From: Chaetoderma sp. LZ-2023a
Taxonomy: Eukaryota > Mollusca > Caudofoveata > Chaetodermatida > Chaetodermatidae
Reading direction: 5' to 3'
DNA length: 64,000 nt
Assembly: GCA_034401795.1 (NCBI GenBank)
Contig: CM067369.1
Coordinates: 140,256,496 to 140,320,495 of the forward strand
Made by a program: the position numbers and the translations under genes. Under the pieces are notes generated by a model that was not told the origin of the DNA, ran no database searches, and saw only the letters and a program-made list of their open reading frames with translations. Below are positions 9,561 to 52,949 of this stretch, piece by piece (within the stretch, counting starts at the first letter, position 1; every line of letters starts with the position of its first letter).

Positions 9561-10440
9561 TGAATTCATCTAGTTTTTGTTGGCCAGATGTCGAAATCAT
9601 AAAAATGTCATCAATGTAGCGGAGGTAGAGGGCAAGTTTTTGAGGTGCTTTAAGAGTAGTTTTTTCTTGAGTTGGGCCATAAAGATAATGGCATATGTTG
9701 GTGCTACTTTACTGCTCATTGCTGTCTCCCCGATTTGGAGGTATTGTTGGCCATTAAATTCCAACGTATTACCTCTCAGTACTATAGATAAGAGGTATAG
9801 TAATGACCTGGGTGTAAGTTCGCCTGGTATGTTGAATTTTCGGATATGTTGGGCGGCTGCTTTTAATCCTTCCATGTGAGGGATGTTGGTGTAAAGTGAG
9901 GTGATGTCCATGGTGACTAGAATGGTGTGATCGGGTAATTTGCCAAATTTTTCTAGTTTATTGATGAAATCTGTAGTGTCCCTGACATATGACGGGATGT
10001 TATGAATATGAGTTTTACGGTGAATATGAGTTTTAACCTATAAAGATGTGTTCAGTAGGGCAGCCATTACTGCTTATAATTGGGCCACCTGGTGTAGGAG
10101 TTAATTGCTTGTGGATTTTTGGTAGTAGATAGAAACGCGCAGTACGTGGGTTGTCTACCCTTAGTCCAGCAGCAGTGTCGCGAGTTATCTCCCCTTTCAG
10201 TACTAAACCTGTGATGGTGGTTTCCACTTTTTCAAAGTGTTTTGTGGTTAGGTTTTCTGTGACCAATCTATAATAGCGCGTGTCTCCCAGTTGTTTGAGT
10301 GCTTCCGCGTTGTAGTCATATGTGTTTAGTATAACAGGGACGTGTCTCTTATCAGCCTTTTGGATGAGAATTGATTTGTAATTGGCTAACTCTTGTGCTA
10401 GTTTTCTCTCTGATGGGGTGAGGTTTCCCCTTAAGTTTTG
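9561..10440 (-). pseudogene. PLE reverse transcriptase, fragmentary
   Basis: The upstream piece (10266-10033) contains RFYLLPKIHK, PGGPIISSNG and PTEHI, which are typical Penelope RT finger motifs. The downstream piece (9911-9597) contains DITSLYTNIPHMEGL, then GNTLEFNGQQYLQI, SSKVAPTYAIIFMAQLKKKL and a DDIFMI-like catalytic stretch near 9600-9570. The family motif AMGTKMAPSYANIFM appears here with substitutions. Frame breaks separate the pieces, so no functional RT is expected. Confidence 0.8.
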
Positions 10441-10479
10441 GCGGTGTTGTTCAGATCATGTTTAACTTTCTTAATGAAG

Positions 10480-19168: not shown

Positions 19169-19990
19169 TTAGTTCAGATTTGATAAATTGGCGACGGCTA
19201 CCGGATTAAGTGCGCTGGACATGTCGCGAAGGTAGAAATCAGTAAATGACGACTCGGCATGCCTTTGTGCTACAGACATCACCTCCTCTAATGACACACC
19301 CTTATAAAGGGCCGATGATGCTGCTAGTGCTCGGACCCGATGGGCATTCGCACGATCAATCTGATTTTGTGCGACATCTGAATAGCATCGACTATCCAAC
19401 GAGAAATAGTATCTTTCGAGGCGCGCAAACGAGGAGCTTTGAGACATAACCACAGAGATTTTGTGTCATCTCTCCACTCCTCAGTATGTTTTTTATACAT
19501 TTTCAGACATCTGACAGAACACCAAGCAGAAGAGTTTGGGTTATGTCTAGTTAAACTCGGCAAATTGATCGGCTGTCCTGGATACTTAAGTGACTGATTC
19601 TTTGCCAGGAAACAAAGATGTGGAAGTAGTCTTAAACCTTCACCCATGACGACAAAATGGTCTTGTTCGGCAGAAAGCGCATGTATTTCGCTTCTCCTTC
19701 TCGCCGACGCTGCTGCAACCAATAATAACTTCATTTAAAGCGTCATTTTCCACTCCTTTAATGGCCAGACTGGGAATGACTGAAGCTAATGCAGACTTAT
19801 ATGCTGCTATGGTTGAAGGTACAAGTTTGTCAACTTCGTATAAATGACAGATAAAATCTGCTATGTGTTGAACAGATGCAGAAAAGGGATCGATATCTCC
19901 TCCCTTACACCACTCTGCAAATTTGTTGATTCTATAATTATATGTTTTAGTGGTTGACCTTCTTCTGGCTGAAGCGACAAACTTCGCTGC
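19169..19990 (-). pseudogene. DIRS tyrosine recombinase region
   Basis: The N-terminal part reads KFVASARRRSTTKTYNYRIN and DFICHLYEVDKLVPSTIAAY, like a SAM-like core-binding domain. The catalytic part has SARRRSEIHAL (Arg I box) and then NAHRVRALAASSAL (HxxR box). This replaces integrase in DIRS elements. Fossil, broken. Confidence 0.85.
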
Positions 19991-20399
19991 TTGCTCAGAA
20001 AAGCCACCCTTAATTGCACGCTGCTTGATAACATCCATGCAGTCAATTTGAACATTTCTGGTCTGTCGTGGAAGTACAGACCCCTGTTCTGAGAGATTAG
20101 ATCTCTTCTGTCTGGAAGAGGGATTGGATTGCAGACCAGAAGGTCCAGCACATCCGTAAACCATGATCGGCCTGGCCAATAAGGGGCGATCAGTAGTACT
20201 TGGCACATACCCTCTCTTATCTTTGCCAGAACTTTTGGGATGAGAATCGTTGGAGGATACGCATACGCGTACATTCCCTTCCAACTTATCGCCAGTGCGT
20301 CTACCGCTAGAGCTAGCGGGTCCGGGATCGGTGACACGTATGTGACCATCTTTGCATTTTGTTTCATCGCAAACAGGTCCACATTTGGCTTGCCCCAAT

Positions 20400-20850
20400 G
20401 TTTGAATAGAACCTCCGCCACCGATTGGTTGAGCTGCCATTCCATCGGACGACAAACCGTCCTTCGACTGAGAGCATCCGCTAAGATGTTCAGTCTTCCT
20501 GGAATGTGTGCTGCCCGAAGAATAACATTCCTCTCTTGGCACCACAGCAGAAGGTTCCAAATCATCATACACAACTCCGGTGATCTCATCCCACCTTGGC
20601 GGTTTAAATAAGACACCACTGTTGAGTTGTTTGTCCTTACTAGGACAATCTTGTCTCGGATTAAGCTCTCGAATTTTCGAAGTGCTAATGTCACTGCTAA
20701 TAATTCGAGAACATTGATATGTTTCTGCGCATTGGTCCGATCCCATTCCCCTGACACTGACTGATCGTCCAATACCGCTCCCCAACCCGTTGTCGATGCA
20801 TCTGTGAAGATGTACATCTGTGGTTGAGGAGGTTGCAGAGGAACATCTCG
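20400..20850 (-). pseudogene. DIRS RNase H region
   Basis: Motifs MYIFTDASTTGWGAVL, NVLELLAVTLALRKFE, RTNNSTVVSYLNRQGG and AAHIPGRLNILADALSR follow the DIRS RNase H order (D, E, D-like, D), with the third acidic position replaced in this copy. Fossil. Confidence 0.85.
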
Positions 20851-20899
20851 CAGGAGATTCTGTTCTGATAAGCACCACTGAAGGTGGAATATCAATGGT

Positions 20900-21600
20900 T
20901 CTTTCACTGGAATCGTCAGAGATAACGGATCCGTTCTGAGACCAGAATGACATTAGTTACATCTGAATCGGCCTGCGCCTGAGTGCCGCATAAGGAACCA
21001 TTTTCTCCAGAGACACTAGTAAACCCAGTATCCTGAGAAATTGGCGCGCCGTCAGAAAGGCTCCTAGAGAAACTGACTCCAGTACTGCAATCAAACTCTT
21101 GACTGTGCTCACCGCCGGAAAAGCTACGCCGTCCCTGAGGTTGAAAAATATTCCCAGATAAACAAACTCCTGGGATGGAGTCAATTCTGATTTCTATAGA
21201 TTCACAATCCATCCTAGATCCTTTAGTAAGGCTAGGACTACCTGAAGATTGTTGCGCAGTGACTGGATTCCCCGCCTTCAGCAGCCAGTCGTCTATGTAA
21301 GTATGAACAGCTATGTTTCTCTTACGAAGATGAAAAATCATGGCGAGAACCACTTTGGTGAAGACCCTCGGTGCTGTGGTCAGGCCGAATGGAAGTGCAT
21401 TGAATTCCCAAACATTGTCTTGGAATGCAAAGCGAAGGTATTTTTGAAAAGGAATTGACATTGGAATATGAAAAAATGCATCCTTCAGATCTATCGACAC
21501 TGCCTACATGCCTTTTCTCAGCCCTGTCATCACCGCTGCTACAGTCTCCATCTGAAATTTTGGAGAAAGAATAAATTTGTTCAACGGTTTGAGATTGAGA
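20900..21600 (-). pseudogene. DIRS reverse transcriptase region
   Basis: Contains SIDLKDAFFHIPM, NALPFGLTTAPRVFTKV and the catalytic YIDDWLL box, followed by a stretch with EFVYLGIFFNLRDG. LKDAFFHIP, PFGL..AP and (Y/V)(I/L)DD are the diagnostic RT motifs of DIRS and related elements. Fossil, broken. Confidence 0.88.
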
Positions 21601-23965
21601 ATTGGTCTCCAACCTCCGGTACGTTTTGGAATGAGAAGCCTAGGGAGGACTGATTGCGGACTAGATGAATCACGTTCTTCTGCTGAAGAGCTTCGATTTC
21701 AAAGCAAGACGATCGGATTCCCTTGGAACAGGAGTCCACACCGGTCGATGTTAACGGAACTAACGATTGACAGATGAGCCAGTCCGGTTCGTAGCCGTTT
21801 CTTAACCACTGACAGACTAAACAATCTCGCATGACCCGTTCCCATTGGCTTGAGAACAGTTGAAGTCTGCCTCTGACTGGAGGAATCTGCACACAGCTGG
21901 AATCGCTTGGGTGAAGATTCTCGACTCCCTTCATTCCTGACGTCACCGGAACTGATTCCGCCAGAAACCCGTCAGGACCAGCCTCCACGGCCGCCCCACG
22001 GCTTCTTGGAATATAACGGCCCGGAACCGCCGCCACGGCTATCCTTATGATAACCGCCGTGACCCGACCCGCCACCCTTCCTGTCCTCCTCATACGGCCT
22101 CTTATTAGAGGACTTGTATGAGGACGAACGGCCAGGTCCCTGCGAACCGGATGCCCGATGGACATCACGGCCAGAAGAACGGAAGGGCGATCTCTGGCGC
22201 TGCCTCTGCTGCTCGTGCCGATGCTGTTTGTAGGACTGCTGCGGCTGTGTCCTCTTAGCGACTTCCACGACTTGCCACGTACTTCCTGCTCAGTGACCAT
22301 TGGCGCGACCGTGGATAAGGCTTGCCGTGCCGAGCCGCCGAACAAACCTGGACCAATCAAAGGTGCAGAAGATAACGCAGCCCTCATCTCAGGTCCTGGT
22401 TCCACACAATCGAGAACCATTCTCCTTCGCTCCGCCAATGATCTGGTGATCACACTGGCCAGGCAATCCTGGGACAAGCGCATGGTGTCCCGAACAACTC
22501 CGGGAGCAGACTCTGGCACTTGTCCATCTTCCGCCACGCAGGCCAGCATACCCTGCAGGACGGTACATCCGTGCGAGAACGCAACCATGGCTGCCCTCAC
22601 TGCATCTTCAATGAGCGTTAGCGCATTAAACGGATCTTTATTGGCTTGGGAAACTAAGGGACAAGAACGCCCCTTCGATTTGCCAGCCAATGGCCTATTC
22701 AGCGCCTCTCGCTCCCTGACGGGAAGCCGTGGAACGCGGGCATACTGATGAAAACGGACCCTACTCCTTATCCCCTTCGGGGCTTTGGGCAACGCATACT
22801 CTGGCTGAACCAGACGATATGCCACAACCTCCAACATGTCAGAAGTCTGCATGTCCAATGGGAGCGTCGGCATGGCCGAAGAGTCACTTGACAGAGCGCT
22901 AGCCACTCACTCTGACATCCATTCCATCGCCGGATCGCGCTGAGATCCTTGATCCGATGCCAACCCGAGATGGCCGGACATCCAGCCAAGGACCTGCACC
23001 CATTCAGCTTCGGTGCAGAAAGCGGACTCATCCATCAATGGACTACCGTTTTCATCTTCCTTCTCACCCTTGGATGAGTAGGTCACCGACGATCCATGCT
23101 GAGAGCTATGGCCCGCACTTCTACCAACATGAAGCGCGTCCATAGCCCGACTACTAGCGGCACCAGTGTCCACCGAATCGCCGGACACATATTCACCACA
23201 GTCCATCGGCTCCAGCACTGGAGGCAGGACTACAGCCGCTTTCACCACGGTAGATGCCGGCACTTCGAGAGGAGCCGCACCTAACGCCGCCGGGATGCCG
23301 CTAGGAACCGCAAAACACGGCTCCAATGACAACACGGGTTGAGTGAAATCGGGGTGGAAAATGCCCGACGGAACGTCGACATCACCACCCGCTTGGCAAA
23401 CCCGTACAAATCCCGAGGGAGATCCCTGGGATGTACCAGGTCTAGCCATCAACGAAATACTTGGCATGCCGGAATCTTCCATTAGGAGATCTTCCTCCTC
23501 CGCCGTCGGCTCTTGAGCCAAGGTCGGAGAAGGGACAGGTGCTTGTCCCTCCGCAGAACTAGCCGGACCACCGAAAGGTTTCCCTGCACCAGCCTGCATC
23601 ATCTGGATCATGGACTGCAAGGACTCAAACATTGCTTTGAACTGGGCCGCCCATACGCCCAATGCTGAATCCATTCGCTCGTTCAGACGATCTTCCAGTC
23701 CACTCACTGACGCCTGATCCCGCTTGGCCGCCTTGTCCCTCGCGATTCTCTCCAAGCACGCATGACGATCACGATCGAACTCTGCCACCAATTCCGACGA
23801 CCACTTGGCGCACACATCACATGGACTTCCCACCTTGCCCTTCGCGCAAGCCACACAATGATGACCCGAGTACTCGTGCTTCATGAACCGGTTGCATTTG
23901 TGGCACAAAATGTCCTGGTTCTTGGCCTTCTGCGAACACAAGAGAAGAATTAAAACGCTGCACAT
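21581..23965 (-). pseudogene. DIRS gag-like region
   Basis: The upstream part has paired cysteines (CHKCNRF, CVACAKG, CDVCAKW) then a Pro/Ser/Glu-rich, low-complexity stretch. The downstream part is rich in Arg, Gly and Ser. Position 5' of RT and composition fit the DIRS gag-like ORF; sequence homology to a named gag is not claimed. Fossil, broken. Confidence 0.6.
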
Positions 23966-24894
23966 GACATACGAGGACGAGCAATACGCACAATTGACAT
24001 GATTGTAAAGTAGAATTACTTAGAAACATTAACCTTCTCTTAAATTAATGATAATCACGCCTTTAGGCAAGAAATATTTGAAACTTTTTTGAGTGAAAGT
24101 TATTAACACAACTTGGAAGCTAACTAACGTTAATACAGCCCAGAAATAAACGCTGATCGCTACAAACACCCTCGACAATGAAGCGAGAGATAAAAATCGA
24201 CATAAACAGAGTGCATAGACACGTCAAGCCAAAGCGAAACATTAATCATGGGCGCCGCCATCTTGGCTAAGGGCGCATCCATCTTGGAAGGAACCGAGTC
24301 GCAAGAGAAATTAACCGAGTACCCGGATAAGATTAAAAAGTTAACGGGTACCGGGCGACTCCAACAATGGCTACCATTTTAAAATAATGTGCCAATGTAA
24401 GGAAATTTCAAACGGTCATTACGGCACGAATGTATAAATTCTAGATTGATACAACCTGCCCCTGAGATGATTTTCCTTTTTCCTCCATCCTTCCAGCAAT
24501 GAATTAAACAAACAACCGCTAATTCCGATAAAAATTGCAAATTTTGAGAGCTACAAAAACACGACTAGCATGGAGAGCAAAATAGACGAATCTGACTGTG
24601 ATTGGGAATTAACTCGGTACCTGCGGCTATGGTATTCCCTGACACAGTATGGGCAGGACCAGGAGAGTATGGGGTTTTAATTGTTTATTTTGAGCTAGAC
24701 TAGATAATAGACATTATCATAATAGCACATCTGGTAAGAATTATTCGAAGCAGAAAGACCAATCCACTGACCGACCGGGCTTATACTAGTTGCAAGTCGA
24801 AATTAAATAAAGTCTATTACAAAGAATTTGGTACTACATGTATAGCAATAATATCGTAATGCCTAATTTCGATATATGTATCAAGATATCTTAC

Positions 24895-26385: not shown

Positions 26386-26727
26386 CTATCGGTTCCATGG
26401 TGTGGAGTTGGTGGATTCAATGACATTCTTTTGCCGTCTCCACTGTGTGGAGTTAGGGTCTGTGGGATCCAAACACAGGACTTGTATGACTCTGTATCTC
26501 ATGTCATTTCTACAGCGCCTAGTGCTGTTGAAATGGCGGGATACTGGAGTGTCATATCGCTCTTGTCTGTGGAGGTTGGCGATTGATCGAAGGTGTTCCT
26601 GAATGCGCATTTTGAAGGGTTTGAGAGTCTCTCCTACAACTATGTATTGTTTCTTGCACACGTGACAGGAGAGTAAATAGACTATATTGAGAGTTTGGCA
26701 ATTCTCTATAAGACTACTAGATGCCAC
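26386..26727 (-). pseudogene. Penelope-like GIY-YIG endonuclease fragment
   Basis: 113-aa ORF with ENCQTLNIVYLLSCHVCKKQ, then YIVVGETLKPFKMRIQEHLR, then TPVSRHFNS. In PLEs the endonuclease reads ..NVVYLL.C..C.KQYVGET...F..R..EH....; here an extra residue sits before GET. No RT is adjacent, so this is a 5'-truncated scrap. It covers the part of the domain missing from the PLE at 7.9-11.4 kb, but it is a separate copy. Confidence 0.85.
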
Positions 26728-26729
26728 AC

Positions 26730-27234
26730 TGTACCTGCGACCACAAAACTCAATCCAGATTCTTTGATCTGCCTATATACATACATATTTCTTCATAGTT
26801 TTTTACGTTCTTGCACATTCTAACTTTTCTTAAAACACTTTCAAAAAAATGTCTTCTCTTTTGTACAAATAAAAGACTATGTTGAACAGCAAAAAACATC
26901 TCATATTTGTCTACCTATATACAAACCGTAGTGACATATGAAATGCTGGAACGATTCCCACATCTAAAGTGATCCAGCACAATGTGTACTTCCAAATACA
27001 CCCAGGTGTACATTTGTGTGGGTACATACACATATGTACACAAACACGTATACACCGTCTGGCCTCTGATGAGTTCTGCACTTGAACGAAACGCTATACG
27101 TCTGAATCAAGAAGTCATGTGAGCACCTAGCACAAGAGTATAAAAGGAGCTGAAAATTCAGGTTCAGGTCATTCAGACTTTTTGGATCTGACAAGTCAGA
27201 CCATGCATCAGGCAAAATTTTAAGAATTTTAACG
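26730..27234. other. Intronic stretch, no gene seen
   Basis: AT-rich. A TATA-like GTATAAAAGG near 27138 is followed by GAGCTGAAAATTCAGGTTC. Its meaning is unknown. Confidence 0.3.
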
Positions 27235-36925: not shown

Positions 36926-37880
36926 TACTCGTTATAAATATCCACTACCTTGTCTACAGATGTAATCTGAATATTGTGTCATGGTCCGCACTTTGGCCTA
37001 CTTAACCAGCGAACATGGTTCACTCCTCAGTTCTGGACTATATTTTCGTTGTTGAAAATGTGGGCAATCTGATTGATTCCTCGATCGTCGCCTCTAGTCC
37101 AGTCAAAATAGCTAAAATTTGGCAAAACCTACCACTAATTGCAATAGAAATGAAATTACGCAGAATGTGTTCAGTACGTACTTCCTGGTGACATATTTAA
37201 AATCTCTTAAAATCTTTTGAGTGGAACTATTCTTTTTTGACAGTTAAAGTTTATTGGGTTTTCAGTCGTCTGGCCCAACGCGAAAACACAAATATGGCTA
37301 TATCGCGACAACTGCTTATACATGCAGAGGATAGGCATTTTCACATCAAATGTAAATAATCTATGCACCCATGTCCATGTATTAATTACTGATGGTTAGC
37401 CCGGCAAGATGAAGTAGATAGGCCTAATGTCAACGTTAAGGGAGTGAGCATGTGATTTGGAGACTATAAATGATTAACTAAAGAAAACTTGCAAATGCAC
37501 GGCACTCGTCATGTTTATAACTATGATAACATTAAACCCATCTGTAAATTAAACACGAGGAAACAATTAAATAGCTCCCTCCAATATATTATATTTATTG
37601 TAGCATACGGACCAGGTTAATTTTATAAATGGACAATCAAAATAAACTGAAAAGCTTTTAAAATAGTAAAACTTCACGATTTTCTTCATTATTAGACTAT
37701 ACGTTACTCAAACCAAATTAATTATTCACATCTGATCCAATAAAACTGATTAAATTGACAAATAAAATATTGATTCAATATTTTGATATTTGAATCAATT
37801 ATTTACCCTTGATCCAATAAAACTGATTCAATTGATTGATAAAGTATTGATTCTAGTCTCTTGATATTCATATCATTTAC

Positions 37881-38170
37881 ATGGCGAGTTGGGTATTCTG
37901 CGAGAAGGCATTATCAGATGGACCAACAGTTACTTTAACTGCCAAAGGGTGTGATGGTATTACTAAAGCTAAAGTATTGAGCGTGAGTCAGAGAGAGTTG
38001 TGAAACCTGGAGACGTGGTTCATATTAAATGTCGAAAAGTATTTTGCAACCCTATAGCCATACAAAATTTAATTAAAAAATGAAAGCATGTTTCAGAGGG
38101 CTATGCCCATTCAGCTGACTCAACTCGCACTCTCCGCTCAGAGGAACCCACATTCTCATATCAGGACCAT
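37881..38170 (+). pseudogene. N-terminal Cys region of the TIR-element protein
   Basis: Starts MASWVFCEKALSDGPTVTL, then TAKGCDGITKA. After a frame change it continues with VKPGDVVHIKCRKVFCNP, then LRSEEPTFSYQDHCLLCGN. Paired Cys/His residues (C..KGC..KC..FC; HCLLCG) suggest a zinc-binding head. I recognise this as the beginning of a widespread, unnamed invertebrate protein family. Confidence 0.6.
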
Positions 38171-38173
38171 TGT

Positions 38174-38956
38174 TTGCTATGTGGAAATACTGACACGTAT
38201 GATCGAAAGAAAAAACTGCATGAGCTCATTTCAGTACGGACAATCGAATTTGATACGACATTACTGAGAGCATGTGATAAACGTCCGGATGAATGGTCAG
38301 ATAAGGTCACGGGAAGGGTGGCATTCGCACAGGACCTTCACGCAGCTGACGCTGTTTACCATCAAACCTGCAATGTAAACTTTAGAACTGGTAAAAATGT
38401 GCCACATTCATACAAGAAAGAATGTGATGGTTTGTCAAAGAAAATAAAATTAGGAAGGGCGGAAGATACTGTTAGAGCCGATGATTTCATAAAGGTCGCA
38501 GTAAACCATGAGGCGAATGATGAACAGCAGACAACAATTGCAGAAATTATTCAAAATACAGCAGATGCTTTACAAGGTTCAGATTTGGAACCATATGGTT
38601 CAATACACATAAAAGACAAACTTCTTGGGCATTTTGTTGATAAAATAATCATCACACAAATAAATAGTTCCCAAAATGTAGTGTCCTTCAGACGTACAGC
38701 TTCGGCCATTATAAATGAATTTTACAGACAGCCCAAAGAAAATGATCTTGAGGGCGAAAAGTTTAGATTAATAGAAGCGGCTGGCCACATCATCAAGAGT
38801 GACATTAAGTCGGTCGTTCAATCTAAAGACGTTTACCTCTCTAGGCTTTCCATGTCTACCGTCGATGAAACAACAACCTTTCTACCACATTCATTGAGAC
38901 TTTTGATGAATGCTGTTTTGTTTGAACGGACAAAGACTCAAAGGTATGTTCCATAG
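38174..38956 (+). pseudogene. TIR-element protein, second segment
   Basis: 260-residue open stretch. It begins with LCGNTDTYDRKKKLHELISV and continues ACDKRPDEWSDKVTGRVAFA, AADAVYHQTCNVNFRTGK. The Cys/His spacing (..DAVYHQTC..NFR) is conserved in the related invertebrate proteins I recall. No catalytic motif was assigned. Confidence 0.65.
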
Positions 38957-38959
38957 GAC

Positions 38960-40610
38960 AGGCTATCATGCAGGCTACATGTCCTAGAAATATCATAGCT
39001 CCATTGCAGTTAGGTCTCGCTATTCAGATGCATTCTCATTTCGCACCCAGATTCCTCATCGAAACATTGAACAAACTTGGATTTTGTAGTTCATATTCTG
39101 AAGTACAGAGGTTTGAACGATGTGCAACAATGAACAAGGAATCAGAAATTTCCGGTCCGTTTCCAGGATGATTCATGCAATACGCAGCAGACAATGTTGA
39201 CCATAATAGTAGAACACCCAATGGCTGGTTATATGCAATCAATATCCAAGGGGACACACATGGGGCAAGCATCTATGATCGATATGAATCCAGGTGACAT
39301 GAATTGTGTCAACTCCACTCTGAATTTCATATCGGAACATGCCAGGCGTCATAGAGCAACACCCGTTGTCACATTTGACAAGCCATTGTGTTGGAAAGCC
39401 ATGCCAATTCTTGAAAGTGCTCCCGCAGATAGTCCGTTGCAATCAATGGTGGTAAGGTTGGGTGGCTTTCATACATTAATGAGCTTTTCTGGGAGCATCG
39501 AACACTTGATGGCAGGGACAGGTCTCCAAGACCCTCTGGAGGCGTTTTTGCTGGAAACACAATTTGCCACATATTGACTGGTAAAGTGGTGGCAAGAGCT
39601 CTCTGTGGCCACTTCCTTATTGATGCTGTCATTCACGCACTTTTACTGTGTAAGATCTTTCAAACAAAATTGCCTCTTCTATCTCAAGATAATGTAACAA
39701 AGGAAACAGACACTGAAAGTGGAAGTAACACTGTCCCAGAGGAACTTGATGCAATAGCGACGATGTACGATGACCTCATGTTAGGCAAAATTACTCTCCA
39801 AGAAGTAGAGTCATCAGTAGAGTTGCTGTCTTTTCACAGGAAACTTCAAACAGAGATGGCAACTATGTCGTCAGAATATTGCACTGCCAAGCGATGGGTA
39901 AATTATATGGAGCTGATCACCATTGTGCGTGACTATCAGATCTGAATGAACGGGTGATTGGTTCCTTCATCTTGAAACTAAGAAAGAAATAGGCTATAAC
40001 ATTTGAATCCATGTTGCCGTACCTGGCAGCATCCGGTCACAATCTGTACACAAAATCAGTGTATCTCTACCGGTCTCAATCTGTACACAAAATCAGTGTA
40101 TCGCTACCTCCAGAGAATGAGATGGTTACATGAAACACACACTCATGTTTACATGCAATTCTCCCAGGGACTACATGTTCCTCTGAGGTCAGACCGTCTT
40201 TTGGTTATCACCAGACCTTGTGATTGAACATTTTCTAATGAGGAGTCTTAAGATGAGTGGTGGCCTCACCAGATGTAGGGGCATGACTGAAACACAGCGA
40301 ATAGTTTGGTGTTTGTCAAGACCCGCGTATACGGAAGTTAATGTTGCCATGGAGCAGCTCACATCAGTCACATATGACACAATGCCGATTCTAGAAAGCT
40401 TATGTCCTTCATTGAATGGTTGTCACCATTTGGCACAAATCCATCACTTCGGAACATAGTTAATGGCATTTCAGCCGGAGCATACGTAAACATACATAAC
40501 GCAAAGCAAATCGGAAATGTCATTCTTAATGAAATGGATGAGCAACCCGTTCTCACATATTCCTTCAGGAGAAAGAAATAGGCTATAACATTTGAATCCA
40601 AGGCTGCTGT
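38960..40610 (+). pseudogene. TIR-element protein, middle region, several frame breaks
   Basis: Successive open pieces: 38968-39171 (PLQLGLAIQMHSHFAPRFLI, ETLNKLGFCSSYSEVQRFE), about 39180-39577 (PVVTFDKPLCWKAMPILESA, MVVRLGGFHTLMSFSGSIEH), 39574-39945 (AVIHALLLCKIF; LLSFHRKLQTEMATMSSEYC) and 40220-40590. Acidic residues in FDKPLCWKA, VRLGGFHTLMSF and the later ..IEHFLMRSLK.. stretch could belong to a transposase core, but I cannot assign a DDE triad by eye. Confidence 0.55.
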
Positions 40611-40711
40611 CAAGATTGGCAGTGATATGGTCCAGATAGATCCGTTACTTCTGTTTCACAGGTTAATCATCACAGGATCTCAGACAAACGATGTGGCAAA
40701 TGCTCTGACCT

Positions 40712-41816
40712 ATGAACTCTGTAGTTACCCTCCAGCATTGTTCGAAGGAAAGGAGTCTCTTTGAAGTCATAAAACCACAGCTAGCAAAAGCGATCTGGTC
40801 TGCAGTACCACCACAACCACCACAAAGTCATAAGTTCAAATATATACTTGATGGGGGTGCTCTTCTCCACAGTATTCCATGGCAAGTGGGTAACACCTAT
40901 GGCAAAATATTGCAAGACTATAGCAACTATGTGACAACACACTATGGTCAATCAGTCGTTGTTTTCGATGGCTACGAGACATGTCCGTCAGCAAAAGACA
41001 ATACCCATAGACGTAGGGCAGGGTGTGAGGGTAACAAAGTGATTTTCAGTCCATTCATGAAACTGCAGTTGAACAAGAAAGAATTTCTCTCCAATAGTGA
41101 AAATAAACAACGATTCCTTGCATTACTGGGTGAAAAACTAGCTCAGTGTGATTGTGAGGTAGCACATGCTAAAGGAGACACCGATGTATTAATCGTGCAA
41201 ACTGGAATTACTGTTTCAAAGATCTGTGAAGCAGTACTGGTCGGGGATGACACTGACCTGCTTATTCTCCTCATACATCATGCTAGGAGGAACAAGCATG
41301 ATATTTACTTCCGTTCTGAACCAAAGAAAGGAGAACCTCGAAAATGTATAAGTGTGAATTCCATCAGGCATACACTAGGAAAGAGCGTTTACGAGAATAT
41401 TCTTTTATTACATGCTTTTCTCGGATGCGATACAACGTCGAGAATATTTGGTATAGGCAAATCCATCGGACTGAAACTCATGAATGACATTCCATGGCCA
41501 GGCCAAAGTATTTGAAAGTGCAGCATCATCGAAGAAAGATCTCATATCTGCTTGTGAGAAGGCCATGGTTATTCTGTACAAAGGAGCAGAAGATGACAAT
41601 CTTAACACGATAAGGTATCAACGATTCCAGGAGTTTGTAACAATCAGTAAAAGGGCCATCCACCCAAACATGTTACCACAGCCTCCGTGTGTTCCATCAG
41701 AGCCAGCACTGGAAAGGGAATGTCTTGATGCTGAAGAATGGGGATGGAAGATTTTAGAACGTAAACTGATACCAGTACAGTCTGACTTGGATCCAGCCCC
41801 GCAGTTCCTGCTTTAA
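40712..41816 (+). pseudogene. FEN1/XPG-like (PIN) nuclease region and C-terminal part
   Basis: The open stretch 40712-41515 shows the acidic ladder of a FEN1/XPG-type PIN nuclease in order: YILDGGALLHSIPW, VVVFDGYETCPSAKD, VAHAKGDTDVLIV, EAVLVGDDTDLLILL and LLLHAFLGCDTTSRIFG. The D's in ILDGG, GDTD, GDDTD and GCDTTS occupy metal-binding positions of that fold. After a frame change, 41484-41816 reads ISKRAIHPNMLPQPP and ECLDAEEWGWKILERKLIPV. Confidence 0.75.
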
Positions 41817-41960
41817 CTTGTGAGATGCATCTGCAGATCGGGCTGTGGTACTATGCGATGCGGATGTCGTCGGCATGGACTTGATTGTTTGTCTGCTTGT
41901 TCTAGGTGCAGGGGAATTTGTCAAAACATGTCAAATGATGACCTGGATGAAAATGAAAAT
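41817..41960 (+). pseudogene. C-terminal Cys-rich (CXC-like) tail
   Basis: Immediately after the previous stretch, the same frame region reads LVRCICRSGCGTMRCGCRRH, then GLDCLSACSRCRGICQN. Nine cysteines in 33 residues with CxC..C....CxC......C..C..C...C spacing resemble a CXC/Tesmin-type zinc cluster. This tail is typical of the same unnamed family. The element ends about 380 bp later. Confidence 0.65.
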
Positions 41961-42466
41961 TAAATGAATGTAGAAATCATTTCAAACATCGAATTTTAGT
42001 GTCGCCTATTATTTAGACTGGTCGTCATATTGGATTATGACGTCATAGAGTGGGAATATTGTGATAACGACATTTTTCTTTGGTAGATTGGTGGCATACT
42101 TCTATCTGTTTGTAACACATTTATGTGGTCTAAAATGGACCGTTATCGTGATACACGCTTTATTATACTCGACTGGGGCCACCTTGGTATCCATCTTGAA
42201 TTTACCATGTTCCACTCAAAAGATTTTACTAGGTTTTTAAAATATAATTTCTACACTCTAAAGAAAAAAAGATAAAAGTGGTTTCGTTTCTGTTGCAATT
42301 AGTGGTGGTGGGTCAAACCTTATTTTGACTGGACTACTCTTTCTACTCAGGAGTTTAAATAATTAAATGGGCATATTGTCATTATTGTGGAAAGTGGCGT
42401 AGTTGCCTACCAGTAGCTATAGTAAAGACTGTGATAGAAATATACAGCTGGTAAAAATGGTACCTA

Positions 42467-43407
42467 GTAGTAGGGCAGATATGTGAAAAAGATGTTCCAT
42501 TCTGGCAGAAAGCATGAAATTTGGCATATAGGTGGTCTAAGGTATCCTGATTATAATTAGATGCGGTGCCACGTGATTCTACCAAGGGAACCCATTCAAA
42601 ATGGCGGATTCAAAATGACCGCCTTCCCAGCGGAAAATTTGCATTACTCAAGCTCTAGACGGAGTAGAGAGATGGGATTAATGTCAAATTAGGGGTTTCA
42701 TGGGTCAATCGTTATAATTCTACTCAATACAATACTCTAAATATGTAAATATCAATCCTTCCATAGCGACCACCTGTGTTTGATGTCAAAAGACGGTGGC
42801 TCTTTAAGATGTGTTATCTAAAAGATCCATCTCTTGAGAACAAAAGCAATATAGCATCGAGAAATACATTGTAGTTTAAATTACTTGATTTCTTAATATC
42901 GAACCAAGTAATGGTCGCTATAGATACGTTCAATTATCCTATTAGAGTATGCAAGGCTATACATGATGCTGTTGATTGTTGAATCATGATTCACAGACAT
43001 CACACGCACTGTGCACCGCATAAGCACAACTGTGCACAAGGTAAGTTGAATTTATAGCATTTGCATCTGCCAGTGCAATTGCTTTTGCAAGCAGATTTCA
43101 CGAGTTCCCGGCATGCCTTAGATGTGTCTGCAAGCAAACTCCATTGCGGTGACCAAGTGTCTCCATCTCTGACCCAACCCCAGTCAGCTGGCGATGGCGT
43201 TTTTGCCTGGAACGCAGTACGTTTGGTGTGTTGCAGCAGAGCTACACTGGTCGGAGGAATGTTTTGAATGGGTTCCCTTGGTATAATCACGTGGCACCGC
43301 ATCTAATTATGTTCAGCATACCTTAAACCACCAATATGCCAAATTTCATGCTTTCTGTCAGAATGGAACATCTTACCTCAAATTTGTTACATATCCGCCC
43401 CACTACA
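42467..43407 (-). mobile_element. Short long-TIR element carrying a CXC-like gene remnant
   Basis: 941 bp. Arms of about 135-145 bp: GTAGTAGGGCAGATATG..GATGTTCCATTCTGGCAGAA..GGTGCCACGTGATTCTACCA (42467-42602), matched in inverse by 43262-43407. No flanking duplication is obvious. The interior encodes on the minus strand the tail of the same unnamed Cys-rich protein family as the larger element. The TIRs differ from those of the 37-42 kb element, so it is a different family member. Confidence 0.72.
43000..43302 (-). pseudogene. CXC-like C-terminal fragment
   Basis: 100-aa ORF: PTSVALLQHTKRTAFQAKTP, PADWGWVRDGDTWSPQWSLL, ACRELVKSACKSNCTGRCKC, YKFNLPCAQLCLCGAQC. The WGW..W.P.W..L..ASKACREL.K..CK..C..RCKC....L.C...C.C...C pattern parallels the tail at 41700-41960. 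The ORF start lies in the TIR, so the rest of the gene was lost. Confidence 0.7.
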
Positions 43408-44066: not shown

Positions 44067-45207
44067 AAGCTACCTAGGGCTTCACGGTATTTCGGTATGA
44101 TACCGAATGCCGGTATCATACCCATACCGGTTGTCATACCGGAATGATATTTTCAATACCGAAATATCGAAATATTATAAAAAATATTATTTGTAGAGTT
44201 TGCAATGATCATTTCGTCGTAAACAAAAACTGTCAAAATCCAACCCGGAAGTAATCACAACCGCCAAGTCTCGCGAATCTCGCGCAAATCTCGCGAGATT
44301 TGAAAGTCATAAGTACATTTTATCGGCACTGAAAAGTAAAAATGCCGAAATATCTACAAATTTATCATGCCTTATTGTTATATCCATACCTGTTCAGTTC
44401 ATATTATATTAATCCTTCATTGTGTAACGATTTTCTATGCCAATAAAGGTCATTTAACTATAAAATTTCAAAGTTTTTTTGCAACGCAATTTCCGATAAA
44501 TGTCCGCCATTGTTCTTACAACGGGTGATGATGACTCGTTTGACGTCATTATGCTCAAGAATAAATTAAAATAAACACAGCTCAGCCTCGTTCTGATTAT
44601 CATTACGGGAATACTCCATCCACATTCCATTCTGATGACGCTATTGACGGCATTACAAGGTCGACACCTATTGTTAACTTTCGCTTTGCGCGTGGTGATC
44701 ATACAATAAATCCTTGTCAAAACTAGAATTGAGAAAGAATGCTCATTCAAACCTGTATGTGTCCAGCGTTTATTGACTAATTTAACTAAGACTATTGATT
44801 GCCCGCCCTGGCCGCCTAACCCTTCGATATACAGTGGCAGAATTTTGAATGCATAATATGTAGTATATGATCAAATGATTATTTTGAAAAAAATTTCCTT
44901 CAAATTTGTTGTGCTGTTCTTGATAACAAATATCACTAAAATTATTTTGGAAAAAGTGTTTCAACTTTACTGATTTTTTAAATTTTTTTGTAAAGAAAAC
45001 AAGAGTATAGGTCACACACTCTGATCACCGCGAAATCAATGGCCCTATTATTAGGCTATTAATCCATTCTATTCATACAAATTATTGATAAATTATTGAT
45101 CGTCATGTGACCCAAGCTCAAGAAGACCTTTTTATAAATATAGCCGTCCTAGCCCATACTAGTATTGTTTTAAAATTAATTTCGGACGATTATATCTTTT
45201 CAACACT

Positions 45208-46207
45208 ATGGAATTGATTCCTAAAGCCAAGGGAACGTCTCCCGTTTGGTTACATTTCAGATTTATAGCAGGCGCTGACGGTAAAGCAACTGATGAAGAA
45301 AAGCCAGTGTGTAAATTGTGTAAAGAGTCTGTGTGCGCCAGAGGTGGTAACACCTCTAATTTACGATTTCATTTACGCAAGCATCATCCGCAAGCATTTT
45401 TGCAACTGACGTTCACGCCTGGTAAACGAAAGAGTGACGATTTAACCCTTGATGACGAGACAGAGACAACGCCGCGAAAGCAGCAGAAGATAAGTGAGTC
45501 ATTCTGTAAAGGAACGATCTACGAGAAATCGCATCCACGACACAAACGCCTGACTGAAGCAGTGACGCGATACTTAGCCGGAGGTATGATTCCTATATAC
45601 ACAGTAGACAACGATCACTTCATTAACATGCTCTCACAGTTTGACAGCCGGTACAAATTGCCTGGTCGTAATTACTTTGGCGATACTGCAATTCCGCAGT
45701 TCTATATTGAGGTGCGCAATAAGATCGTCGATGAACTGAAATGTGCAGACTACTTTGCTACTACCACGGATCTTTGGTCATCAGAAAATATGGTGCCGTA
45801 TCTTGGCCTGACCGTCCATTTCATCGATAGGACGTGGACCCTACAGGCTCGTGTGTTAGAAACATTGTATTTTCCAAATGACCATATGGCAGATAACATC
45901 GGACAAACTTTGACAGAATGTTTTGCAAACTGGGGACTTAGCGCTGACAAGCATGTGTGCATGACGACGGATAACGGCAGCAACATAAAAAAGGCTCTAC
46001 GAGATCTGGATTGGATTAACCTGTCATGCTTTGGCCACAATTTGCATCTAGCAGTAAATGGTGCAATGAACGATAAGCGTATATCGAGAACGTTAGGTGT
46101 ATGCCGTACGATTGTGTCGACATTCTGTACCAGCTGGAAGAAGCGACGCGAGCTCAAGGAGGCGCAGGAAACCCTTGGATTGCCAAAGCATCAGCTGATT
46201 ACATTAA
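45208..46207 (+). CDS. hAT transposase exon 1 (BED finger and catalytic core part)
   Basis: Starts at ATG 45208. Residues about 10-60 form a BED zinc finger (SPVWLHFRF..CKLCKESV..NLRFHLRKHHP). After a linker the RNase H-like core has ATTTDLWSSENMVPYLGLTV (first Asp), CMTTDNGSNI (second Asp) and the hAT-conserved CFGHNLHLAVNGAM. It runs to about LPKHQLIT. Family proteins then read D..TRW, which is found in frame at 46796, so an intron of about 0.6 kb intervenes. I could not fix the donor: a GT-type donor at 46208 does not keep phase. The open frame continues to 46299 without homology. Confidence 0.9.
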
Positions 46208-46474
46208 GTTTGTTATCTATATATTGTAGTTTACATATAGTAGGCCTACATGTACTCTTGCTGAATATTTGCAGTGATAGTTTAACTGAATCATTATAAT
46301 AGTTTTCAGTAAAATAATTATTCAAATATTCAGCAGAATTCATCTATTATGTGTGTTTGGGATGAAAATGGTTGATCAGTCAAGCACAGTATGTGGTGTA
46401 TTATTTCTATAGTAGGCCAGTAGTTGTTGCCTTAGTAACGCTTGACCGCTTAGCCGGCAAGATGACTATGATGA

Positions 46475-46770
46475 GGACATTGACCCATTTAATTCAGTTA
46501 GAATTAGATATGTCATCCTAAATTGTTCATTTGCAAGCCCTAAGATAAAATTATTTTTTGAAAATTTACCGCTGGAATGACTTGCTAAGTTACTATGATG
46601 AGGACATTGACCCATTTTATTCTGTTAGAATTAGATATGTTATCCTAAATTGTTCATTTGCAAGCACTAAGATAAAATTATTTTTTGAAAATTTACCGCT
46701 GGAATGACTGGCTAGGTTACTATGATATGGACATTGACTAAATTGTTCATTTGCAAGCCCTAAGATGAAT
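46475..46770. repeat. About 122-bp tandem repeat in the hAT intron
   Basis: GATGAGGACATTGACCCATT, then AATTAGATATGT.ATCCTAAA, then ATTTACCGCTGGAATGACT, repeated twice with a third partial unit. The last phrase is the arm of hairpin 'B', so a 'B' arm was duplicated along with intron sequence. Confidence 0.8.
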
Positions 46771-46795
46771 ATGTCTTAATCTTATCTATTCACAG

Positions 46796-47671
46796 GATTG
46801 TGCCACTAGATGGGGAGCCAAGTTTGCCATGATGAAGAGGATAGTTGAGCAGGAGCCAGCCATTACCAGAGTATTAAATTTAGATCGGAAGACTAAACAA
46901 CTAGCCCCTACTTGTCAGGATTCCCATGTTTTGGAAGCAGTGTGTAGTGCCCTAGAAAGTGTAGGAGACTTTAACGATATTTTGTCACAGGAGAAATATG
47001 TTAGTGTATCTTCATTGAAACCTCTGCTTAACGTCATCAATGTCAATGTTCTCAATCCGCCAACAGAGGATGATGTAATTGTTCATGACTTGACAACCGA
47101 GATGCGAGATTCGATAAAGAAATCTCTGTCAAAATGTTACAATGACGATAAAATTACTGAACTTCTATGTGTGGCAACCTTTCTTGATCCTAAGTTTAAG
47201 AATCAATATCTGACCGAGGAGGAGTACCACACTGTGAAGGAGAAAATTCGTATGGATGTATCACTACATGTCAAGCCTGTGTCTATCAGTAACGATGTCC
47301 ATGTTAAACACACACCAGCTAAGAAAACCTTAGCAAGTTTGTTTGTCAAAACCAAGAAATCAAGTGACAATCAATGTAGCTCAGTAGACACTCCCCCAGT
47401 AGATAGTGAACTTGTATTGTATTTAGGTGCCCCTGAACCAGACCAAGACTCCAATCCTCTAGACTGGTGGAAAATTCATGAAAAGAGCTATCCGACCTTA
47501 GCCAACTTTGCTAAGAAGTATCTTTGTGTGACTGCCACAAGCTGTCCCTCAGAACGACTCTTTAGCAAAGCAGGCCAGATTGTTAACCCCAAACGTGCTT
47601 GCTTAAAACCTGATACGGTCAACATGCTATCTTTTCTGGCAGGAAATATGTCAAACTTTGTAAAACAATAA
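46796..47671 (+). CDS. hAT transposase exon 2 (helical insert, catalytic Glu, hATC dimerisation)
   Basis: Follows acceptor TCTATTCACAG. It reads DCATRWGAKFAMMKRIVEQE and ends with the hATC domain: DWWKIHEKSYPTLANFAKKY, SCPSERLFSKAGQIVNPKRA, CLKPDTVNMLSFLAGNM. Glu in SCPSERLFSKAG is the third catalytic acid position in hAT. About 292 residues are intact to the TAA at 47669-47671. With exon 1 the protein would be about 625 residues, normal for ZBED-type hAT transposases. Confidence 0.92.
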   Translation, partial: DCATRWGAKFAMMKRIVEQEPAITRVLNLDRKTKQLAPTCQDSHVLEAVCSALESVGDFNDILSQEKYVSVSSLKPLLNVINVNVLNPPTEDDVIVHDLTTEMRDSIKKSLSKCYNDDKITELLCVATFLDPKFKNQYLTEEEYHTVKEKIRMDVSLHVKPVSISNDVHVKHTPAKKTLASLFVKTKKSSDNQCSSVDTPPVDSELVLYLGAPEPDQDSNPLDWWKIHEKSYPTLANFAKKYLCVTATSCPSERLFSKAGQIVNPKRACLKPDTVNMLSFLAGNMSNFVKQ

Positions 47672-48062: not shown

Positions 48063-50397
48063 TTTGTTTTAAATATTTGGAATAAAATTTACATTTAATA
48101 TTTGTGGCTTGCTGTTATTTCTGCTGACTAATGGTAGCTGTCAATCATTCACCCGTTATCAAGTGCGCGTAAACATTCTGCGCACTTTACGGGGTCACTT
48201 CCGGCTTGCACATATTTTACGTGAGTCAACATTTTATGAACTAATATCGTGACTTTGCTTCCAAAATACACAAGTAACGCGATTTATATTGTTATCTTTG
48301 TATATAGATGATAATATAAATAGTGCCGCTTGTTCATTTATGGAAACAAATTCGAACTGAGAATAGTATTTAATGTCCGAGCATGGTGTCATATGTATGT
48401 CGTTCAAACACTAATACGTTATACGACAACGATGATTTGGGGGTGGGGAAATGACAACAAAACACATGTTTTATGTAGAATATACAAATGCTATGGCGCC
48501 CAAAGTACCCCCTACAACATCATTCAATGCACATATGAGTAATACCGGTATGAAAGGTATACCGGTATTGAAATTGATACCATAACCGGTTTTCGTTTTT
48601 CCAATACCGTGAAGCCCTAAAGCTACCACCAGTTTTCGATCGCTAAATACGCAAGTATTATTTGCGTTTTATCCAATCAAACTTAGCGTTACATTACATT
48701 AGAAGGCCGAATTTTCTAAATCCACTGTCAATTGGTCAATTCAGTTTGTTTACAAATTTTTGCGGGAAAATATAAATAGATCTTTGTGAATGAAATAGTT
48801 TGCGTAAAAATGTCGAAGATGACAAAGAAATTCCTTTATTTAAGCAAGTACCCGCGAGTACCCGATTATCCGGATAGATGGAATTATTATTATTATCATT
48901 ATTAAAGAGCTGCTCAACGATTGGGCAAGCTGGAATATCTTTCTAAACGGTATCCTATACTAGCAGTGTTATTTATAATACGGAAATGCGAACGCAACCC
49001 GCTCTCGGTAGTTAACCCTCTGGGCCCTACCAAGAATTTACAAAGAAGTGCTAGAAACCCTACAGCCAAAAGCTGGAAACTTGCTAAGAAACCTAGCCTA
49101 TAAGCGGTAGTGGCGTGATAGCGGCGTAGTGCTACCATGCCAACTATATTAACTATTTTTGGCAAAGTAACAGATCACTATATATAAAACTATATATCAT
49201 TAGAAAGCGCAATAAAATACCTTTAAGTACATATAAAATTTGTATGAATAAAATATATTTTAGTTAGTCAACGTGCCTCTCAAAATGGCCACACCTTGTA
49301 GGATAAATACATTGGTCTATTTTTGCAGTTTATCGAATTTTTTTTAAATTTTACAAATGCCATTGATAAATTTAATCACAATGGTATTATAACTAACAGA
49401 TACCAAAGTTTCGTGAAGGTTTTCATCCGATAAGATGTGAAAATGACAATCATATTATGTCATGGTACCGTAACATTTCGAGAAATTCCGGTCATGATTT
49501 TGGGGGGAGGCCTTATTCAATGTTGAATAATTTCTTTATACATAACCGAACACATACCAGGGTTTCTCAGCGTTGAAAACGAATAAATGGCAAATTTTAT
49601 GCTATGTAGCATTGCTGGTTGCAATCAGCAATTTAAGAAGCGAACGCAAATGTTTTACACTAAGATTCTATAGCATCAGACATTTTTTCGTAGCGGCATC
49701 TCCAATAGGAATCGGTTACCGTGATAGATCGCGAGAGAATGAGATGAATTTGTAGAATCGTACCCGTATCTAATATACGAGTACCACGCTCATTACCCGT
49801 TATTGGCATCGCCGTATCACGCGCTATAAGATTGACGCGTCTGATTGGTCGAGAATTCATGAATATTAATTTTTCCGGCAAGATGGCGACACGATCAGCT
49901 GTTTTGGAAAATAGTTGTATGTTCAAATATGTCAATCTATGCATATTTCTTGTACGCCACAAACTAAAAAGTAGACAGATGACTAGATTAACCATATTGC
50001 CAATCGGGAAGTGGGATGCCGATATATTTGACAGCTTTCGCATCTCAACTCGGCGTAATTAATGCTAGTAATTTGAAGAGTAAATTTTCTTGGAAATTGT
50101 AAACAAAGACATGCATCGATGATTGAGATTATCGGATTGTTTATCTATAACCTTATTGTTATTTCGCACCAGAGGTAAACGAATGGATTTATATATTATT
50201 GGTTCTGCTGCTTTCTTACCACAATCTATAACTTTCTCGGTTAAATTAGTCATTGAGTAACTGAAAACTTGGAAAAGTCCATGATGGACTTAGCTACGTC
50301 ATCCAATAAATATTTTGATTGTGACGTCAGCCTACATGTGATGTAATTCATTATGATGTCATATACTTAGGTGACAGATTGGATTCATCTATTGTTT

Positions 50398-50606
50398 AAC
50401 CCTTTCTCATTTTCACCGATAAATCCCTGAAAAAGTATGATGCTTACAGTATAAAATTTATTCTATTGAATATTTTGAAATTAATTTGACTGAAAGCCAT
50501 TGCTGCCTAAGGCAGTTTGCAGTCAAACTAATTTTAAAATATTCACCAGTTTTCCTTTATGGTATCATTAAAATGAGGTATGGGGAATTCATCGGAAAAA
50601 GGGTTA
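50398..50606. mobile_element. Small TTAA-flanked element in the spacer, enclosing hairpin 'A'
   Basis: TTAACCCTTTCTCATTTTC (50397) and TTCATCGGAAAAAGGGTTAA (to 50608) form weak inverted ends. A hairpin 'A' copy with GAAATTAATTTGACTG and CAGTCAAACTAATTTT lies inside at about 50460-50545. Confidence 0.45.
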
Positions 50607-50978
50607 ATCTTACCTTGCTCGTGTGCAGATTTATGTTGTATATTTCACTGCCGTCGAATCATACTTGCGTCGTTCTTGGCTGATACATTTCGATGGCGTG
50701 AAGTGTATACGGTGTCTCCGAATTCATAATCATATCAGTAATTTACATTAACAATTTTGATTGAATTCTACCAAAAGCTTTTGGAGATGGATGGATAGAC
50801 AGATTTTTACACACATCAACAAATTTTTCTCTTTATAAAATCCATGTTAGTAAATCCATCAGCTCACTTAGTAGAAGAAAGTCTCTGATGTTTTTAAGCC
50901 ATTGTCCACTCACCTGAAAAAAAATAGGAACAATAAGTTAGAAATAGGCAAATTCTAAGAGTTATATTAAGACTTTAA

Positions 50979-51148
50979 CAATCAAATTTTTTCATGAAAA
51001 TTTCCATTTTCTCATAGACAATGCCCATATGCAGACCAAGAGCCAGTCATTCCAGTGATACATTTTCAAAAATAATGTTACTTTGGTCGGAAAATTGGCA
51101 TTTTCCTAGACAACTGCAGCAGTTTTGGTTTGACTCAAATGTTAGATG
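50979..51148. mobile_element. Hairpin MITE 'B' copy with central deletion
   Basis: TTAA at about 50975 and 51149-51152. Left arm CATAGACAATGCCCATATGC, then directly AGCCAGTCATTCCAGTGATA, so the inner left arm is missing. Confidence 0.65.
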
Positions 51149-51379
51149 GTTAACAATATACATGTACGGCGCAGGGTCATAGGGATATACTGGTAAGCAC
51201 TATGACCCGACAACGGCTGTTATGGTCATACACCGCCCTCAGATTTTAGCGCAGAAATGAATAATATAATAAATGGTGGGCATATATAGTCCAAAAAGGG
51301 AGTATGACTACTAGTTACTGGATTAACCTTTTCAATCGACAAGAGTGAATACAAAATTTGTTACAAATGTTTCTAAATT

Positions 51380-51463
51380 CTGTTGAATATTTTGAAACTA
51401 ATTTGACTGGAAGCTGGCTAAGGCAGCACCAGCTTCAAACTGGATTCAAAATATTCAACATCT
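51380..51463. mobile_element. Hairpin MITE 'A' copy
   Basis: TGTTGAATATTTTGAAACTA.. / ..ATTCAAAATATTCAACA with centre GGAAGCTGGCTAAGGCAGCA. Confidence 0.8.
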
Positions 51464-52949
51464 TACCTTTATAATGGCTGTAAACGTGAAATTCTAAATG
51501 TGATAATTGTTTTTAATTTTGGGCACACTTCCATGATAGTGCAAGTTTGTTTCAGGGCCCCGGTTATCTATATCTTTGATCAGAGGATACTGGCCACGCA
51601 GTAACTGGTGATAGAATGTTTGTAACAAGGGAAATAGTGAAATATTTGTTTTCTAAGGAATAATTAGTAAGTTCCAATCATCAATGATTGTTAGTCAATG
51701 TGGTGTTACTTCCCAAGTTTTCAGTTACTCAATGACTAATTTAACTGAGAAAGTTATAGATTGTGGTAAGAAAGCAGCAGAACCAATAATATATAAATCC
51801 ATTTGTTTACCTCTGGTCGCGAAATAACAATAAGGTTATAGATAAACAATCCGATAGGCTCAATCATCGATGCGTGTCTTTGTTTACAATTTCCAAGAAA
51901 ACTTACTCTTCAAATTACTAGCATTAATTACGCCGAGTTGAGATGCGAAAGCTGTCAAATATATCGGCATCCCACTTCCCGATTGGCAATATGGTTAATC
52001 TAGTCATCTGTCTACTTTTTAGTTTGTGGCGTACAAGAAATATGCATAGATTGACTTGACCCACAACGATTTTGCATAACAGCTGATCGTGTCACCATCT
52101 TGCCGGAAAAATTAATATTCATGAATTCTCGACCAATCAGACGCGTCAATCTTATAGCGCGTGATATGGTGATGACAATAACACGTAATGAGCTTGGTAC
52201 TCGTATATTAGATACGGGTACGATTCTACAAATTCCTCTCGTTCTCTCACGATCTGTCGTGATAAACAATTCCTATTGGAGACGCCGGTACGAAAAAATG
52301 TGTGATGCTATAGAATCTTAGTGTAAAACATTCGCGTTCGCTTCTTAAATTGCTGATTGCAACCAGCAATGCTACATAGCATAAAATTTGCCATTTATTC
52401 GTTGTCAACGCTGAGAAACCCTGGTATGTGTTCGGTTATGTATAAAGGAATTATTCAACATTGAATGGGGCCTCCCCCCAAAATCATGACCGGAATTTCT
52501 CGATATAATATAATTGCCATTTTCACATCTTATCGGATGAAAACCTTCACGAAACTTTGGTATCTGTTAGTTTTAATACCATTGTGATTAAATTTATCAG
52601 TGGCATTAGTAAAATTTAAAAAAAATTCGATAAACTTTGCAAAAATAGACCAATGTATTTATCCTACAAGGTGTGGCCATTTTGAGAGGCACGTTGACTA
52701 AAATACATTTTATTCATACAAATCTTATATGTACTTAAAGGAATTTTATTGCCCTTTCTAATGATATATAGGTTTATATATAGTGAGCCGTTACTTTGCC
52801 AAAAATAGTTAATATAATTGGCATGGTAGCACTACGCCGCTATCACGCCACTGCTGCTTATAGGCTAGGTTTCTAAGCAAGTTTCCAGCTTTTGGCTGTA
52901 GGGTTTCTAGCACTTTTTTGTAAATTCTTGGTAGGGCCCAGAGGGTTAA

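Follow-up and report, generated by a model that had tools for sequence, protein, structure and literature searches.

Structure of the element and its ends

The window, i.e., the whole stretch of DNA that was analyzed (64,000 nucleotides), contains a DNA element of 5,242 bp at positions 37095-42336. Its features, together with the two flanking trinucleotides, are listed below in order of position.

37092-37094, no strand: CTC, left copy of a putative 3-bp target duplication (single element copy)
37095-37227, + strand: left terminal inverted repeat (TIR) with the tip TAGTCCAGTCAAAATA (comparison of ends, shuffle test)
37716-37879, + strand: two adjoining direct repeats of ~87 bp each, 79% alike, 5' of the first coding piece
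37881-38083, + strand: proposed protein start (ATG at 37881) and first Cys cluster, across two frames (by eye)
38084-38953, + strand: N-terminal region with the second Cys/His cluster (CLLCG ... YHQTC), in an open frame of 290 codons
38926-40456, + strand: middle, in several frames, with the proposed DDE/D core (frames and reading by eye; catalytic assignment inferred)
39981-40011, + strand: exact duplicate (31 bp) of 40570-40600, located where the frame breaks
40709-41512, + strand: XPG/FEN1-like nuclease domain (268-codon open frame; motif order)
41484-41813, + strand: region 3' of the nuclease, in the next frame (stop-to-stop frames, by eye)
41817-41927, + strand: Cys-rich tail, CxC...C...RCxC...C...C (by eye)
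42209-42336, - strand: right TIR (comparison of ends, shuffle test)
42337-42339, no strand: CTC on the right, second copy of the putative 3-bp target duplication (single element copy)

The two arms are inverted copies of approximately 130 bp and share the perfect 16-bp tip TAGTCCAGTCAAAATA. BLAST aligned one arm with the other in two segments, the first of 61 columns (77%) and the second of 37 columns (86%). When the terminal 135 bp of both sides were aligned locally, the score was 41.5, compared with a mean of 10.0 (sd 1.6, maximum 18.5) for 500 pairs of dinucleotide-shuffled ends. Allowing up to 2 mismatches, the tip was found in the window at the two element ends only (0.08 matches expected), and at least two matches were obtained in 1 of 100 shuffles. 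As perfect 16-mer inverted pairs are common in the window (879 overlapping pairs separated by under 8 kb, many of which come from one foldback element), the case rests on the whole 130-bp arm and not on the tip. Directly outside the tips the flanks agree over exactly 3 bases (CCTC on the left, CTCT on the right), a match that would arise by coincidence in approximately 1 of 64 cases; the CTC pair is thus a putative target duplication, seen in one copy. The original prediction of inverted ends with perfect 16-bp tips and CTC on both sides was borne out, with an arm score far beyond that of the shuffles.

Coding interior and its decay

Read in pieces, the interior corresponds to one large protein with a Cys-rich head, a long middle, a series of XPG/FEN1-like acidic motifs and a Cys-rich tail. 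The coding pieces (37881-41927) have a single orientation and occupy most of the element, so that the protein sits inside TIR-bounded DNA, as expected from the earlier claim of a DNA transposon. The Cys head and Cys tail described previously are both present; their description had omitted the break-up over several frames. Reading along the coding pieces by eye, we counted approximately ten changes of frame and four in-frame stop codons; consequently, the whole protein cannot be made by the copy at 37095-42336, which is dead. Introns might account for a few of the frame changes or stops at most, but hardly for all of them, and the 31-bp repeat (39981-40011 and 40570-40600) possibly originated as a templated insertion during break repair.

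In the middle region, acidic residues were picked by eye in three different frames, within ADNVDHN (~39190), TFDKPL (~39378), and LVIEHF (~40227), and these are candidates for a DDE/D triad, a reading guided by known relatives. Pfam returned no transposase match among the element pieces given to it, and two weak and unrelated matches (E-values of 0.047 and 0.092) were all that the 10 pieces searched yielded; the translation of 38084-38953 had none at E ≤ 1. Searches against NCBIfam and PHROGs (7 pieces each) likewise gave only weak unrelated matches. The AlphaFold model of 39134-39574 was weak (mean pLDDT 50), and the 38 rows obtained for it with Foldseek (best E 0.88) are meaningless as matches. 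Within the window, a second copy of the element pieces was sought with tblastn (E ≤ 10) and only weak matches were recovered, the strongest of which was the inverted arm belonging to a downstream Cys tail.

The nuclease-like piece

All of the acidic motifs quoted in the original prediction lie in the + strand frame 40709-41512, where they follow the order FDG / DxD / GxD plus GIG, as in FEN1. The EAEA-type motif has a known role in FEN1 nucleases; at its place the window piece has GDTDVLIV. In one phylum, PF00867 matched 52 of 55 genomes, and this search supplied 30 of the 31 comparison loci; the 31 loci were reduced to 23 archaeal FEN1 proteins by a motif filter, with 8 loci dropped. A first, stricter motif pattern that required an acidic residue before DxD matched none of these 23 proteins and was subsequently relaxed. 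The relaxed pattern was found in 7 of the 23 proteins and in 8 of 127 ORFs from the 31 XPG_I loci, in none of 775 ORFs (≥ 150 codons) from the other loci, and in 0 of 20,000 shuffles of the nuclease piece; as the pattern was designed with knowledge of the window piece, these counts are weak evidence.

Profile comparisons did not add to the likeness in motif order. Pfam, XPG_I included, gave no match to the piece at E ≤ 1, the best E-value against PDB sequences was 0.89, and tblastn against the 31 XPG_I loci returned nothing at E ≤ 1. With hhalign, the alignment to the 23 archaeal FEN1 rows had a probability of 0.6, a value reached by 5 of 60 shuffles (2 of 60 for the score), and the reversed piece had a probability of 0.3. 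The fold model was poor as well (mean pLDDT 33). The profile check proposed together with the original prediction therefore ended without confirmation by either Pfam or hhalign, which is unsurprising for one degenerate sequence with no relatives. We call the piece XPG-like, a designation taken solely from the order of its motifs.

Search for relatives in viral and prokaryotic DNA

Three peptide patterns yielded 6, 7, and 5 candidate stretches in viral contigs, all of which failed tblastn, and a further peptide pattern yielded no candidate there. DNA motif scans retrieved 4 and 9 loci from viral contigs and 31 loci from genome contigs. With 12 window pieces as queries, tblastn found nothing at E ≤ 0.1 in the first 35 loci, and six matches at E ≤ 1 (best 0.21) in all 75 loci; in both runs the tail query was taken in a wrong frame with stops, so these results apply to the element apart from its own Cys tail. 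The nuclease piece had no match at E ≤ 1 in phages and plasmids, and one symbiont genome, uninformative by itself, gave no match. No relative of the element emerged from these searches, which covered viral and prokaryotic DNA to a limited extent.

Identity of the element

The AcademX nuclease is of the XPG type, as the original prediction also stated. In the available text of Kojima 2023 (PMC10045372), target site duplications (TSDs) are 9-10 bp long in AcademH and 3-4 bp in AcademX, a difference that seems related to the helicase and the nuclease that the two encode. Since the inverted ends, the 3-bp flank, the length and the series of XPG-like motifs are each consistent with AcademX, we interpret the locus as a decayed copy of a cut-and-paste DNA transposon of the AcademX type, residing in the genome of an animal, with a probability of roughly 0.8. 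What the element shares with AcademX, known here by description only, is the presence of TIRs, a nuclease-like domain, a 3-bp flanking repeat and a size of ~5 kb; no difference emerged, the copy in the window being dead and its proposed DDE/D core unmatched in the profile searches. The element (5,242 bp) is also close to the mean length of 5,565 bp given for 100 curated autonomous Academ consensus elements with DDE/D ORFs in the accessible part of a study on bivalves (PMC10294476). This most likely identity combines the features of the element with the described traits of AcademX, and is thus a comparison with a description and not with Academ sequences. The earlier choice of Academ as the closest described group agrees with the 3-4 bp TSDs reported for AcademX, and with the nuclease implied for it, in PMC10045372.

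AcademH, which belongs to the same superfamily according to PMC10045372, combines a helicase with TSDs of 9-10 bp. Membership in this group was rejected for the window element, as its flanking repeat is 3 bp and not 9-10 bp long, and Pfam showed no helicase in 9 element pieces from between the first and last coding stretches.

The same structure could belong to a DNA transposon of another or undescribed superfamily, with an XPG-like domain and a Cys tail as in AcademX and a transposase of its own. Such an origin appears unlikely, yet it gains from the fact that Academ was matched by description and not by sequence, and from a related Cys tail in a different setting (43000-43302, on the opposite strand), because of which the tail may be common to several families; against it, the nuclease, the 3-bp flank and the length agree with AcademX in the descriptions at hand. 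That a gene or pseudogene of the host, carrying an XPG-like domain, came to lie between chance or foreign inverted repeats is highly improbable: only one copy was seen, the flanking CTC comprises just 3 bases and perfect 16-mer inverted pairs abound in the window, but the 130-bp arm alignment lies far beyond the shuffles, the coding pieces (37881-41927) share one orientation and take up most of the space between the arms, and other mobile elements are present in the neighbourhood.

Proposed working of the probable AcademX-type element

In an intact AcademX-type element, one large protein would have been encoded, the Zn-binding head and tail of which may have bound DNA. The DDE/D core in its middle would cut at the TIR ends and join these ends to the target at two cuts separated by 3 bp, and the XPG-like domain could trim or cleave a flap or hairpin intermediate. 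We infer that the element was mobile in the past. Judging from the superfamily, the nuclease more probably assists a DDE/D transposase. It was also considered that the XPG-like domain, and not the DDE/D core, makes the first end cuts, acting as a flap or cruciform nuclease on the long TIRs and generating the CTC duplication by its stagger, but we regard this as very improbable.

The original prediction had suggested an excision route distinct from that of DDE transposases in an unnamed protein family. In the literature, Academ figures as a superfamily of the DDE/D kind that is amplified in bivalves (PMC10294476); it is listed among the superfamilies with a DDD/E transposase (PMC9587614) and among DDE transposons (PMC9004415), and named as a Repbase superfamily (PMC4455052). 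A separate non-DDE route is consequently not supported, and, provided that the Academ assignment is right, neither is the view of the family as unnamed, Academ being a listed superfamily already counted in bivalves. The find is real but ordinary, and a single dead copy adds little; the role of a nuclease in a DDE/D transposon, and whether it sets the 3-4 bp duplication, are questions that had already been raised by Kojima 2023 (PMC10045372).

Other systems are comparable in part. FEN1/XPG nucleases share the order of the FDG, DxD, and GxD plus GIG motifs with the window piece, but have no significant profile match to it. Kolobok elements target TTAA. As far as their descriptions were available, KolobokE and KolobokP also combine a DDD/E transposase with an accessory nuclease, although of other types (lambda-exonuclease-like and His-Me finger).

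Neighbouring mobile DNA in the window

A second Cys-rich tail, related to that of the element, is located ~660 bp downstream on the opposite strand (43000-43302, - strand). The local score between the two tails is 62, which was reached by none of 2,000 shuffles (maximum 61). The second tail runs into one arm of an inverted pair (42489-42601 and 43262-43374, 94%), and is probably what is left of a different element that carried a tail of this kind.

Pieces of a hAT transposase are found at 45163-47668 (+ strand), with a BED zinc finger at 45163-46296 and the hAT dimerisation domain at 46769-47668. The region at 19643-21503 (- strand), perhaps extending to 24019, carries reverse transcriptase and RNase H domains as well as a phage-integrase N-terminal domain below the curated cut-off, and looks DIRS-like by eye; 22910-24019 had no match. 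A reverse transcriptase fragment at 9600-10455 (- strand; RVT_1, E 0.0018, below the cut-off) and a GIY-YIG-like piece at 26389-26772 (- strand), recognized by eye and without a Pfam match, possibly derive from Penelope-like elements. A large foldback element of 3.9 kb occupies positions 49012-52949, with arms of ~1.25 kb in six blocks that are 89-98% complementary. Its ends read TTAACCC...GGGTTAA, as in piggyBac-like elements with TTAA targets.
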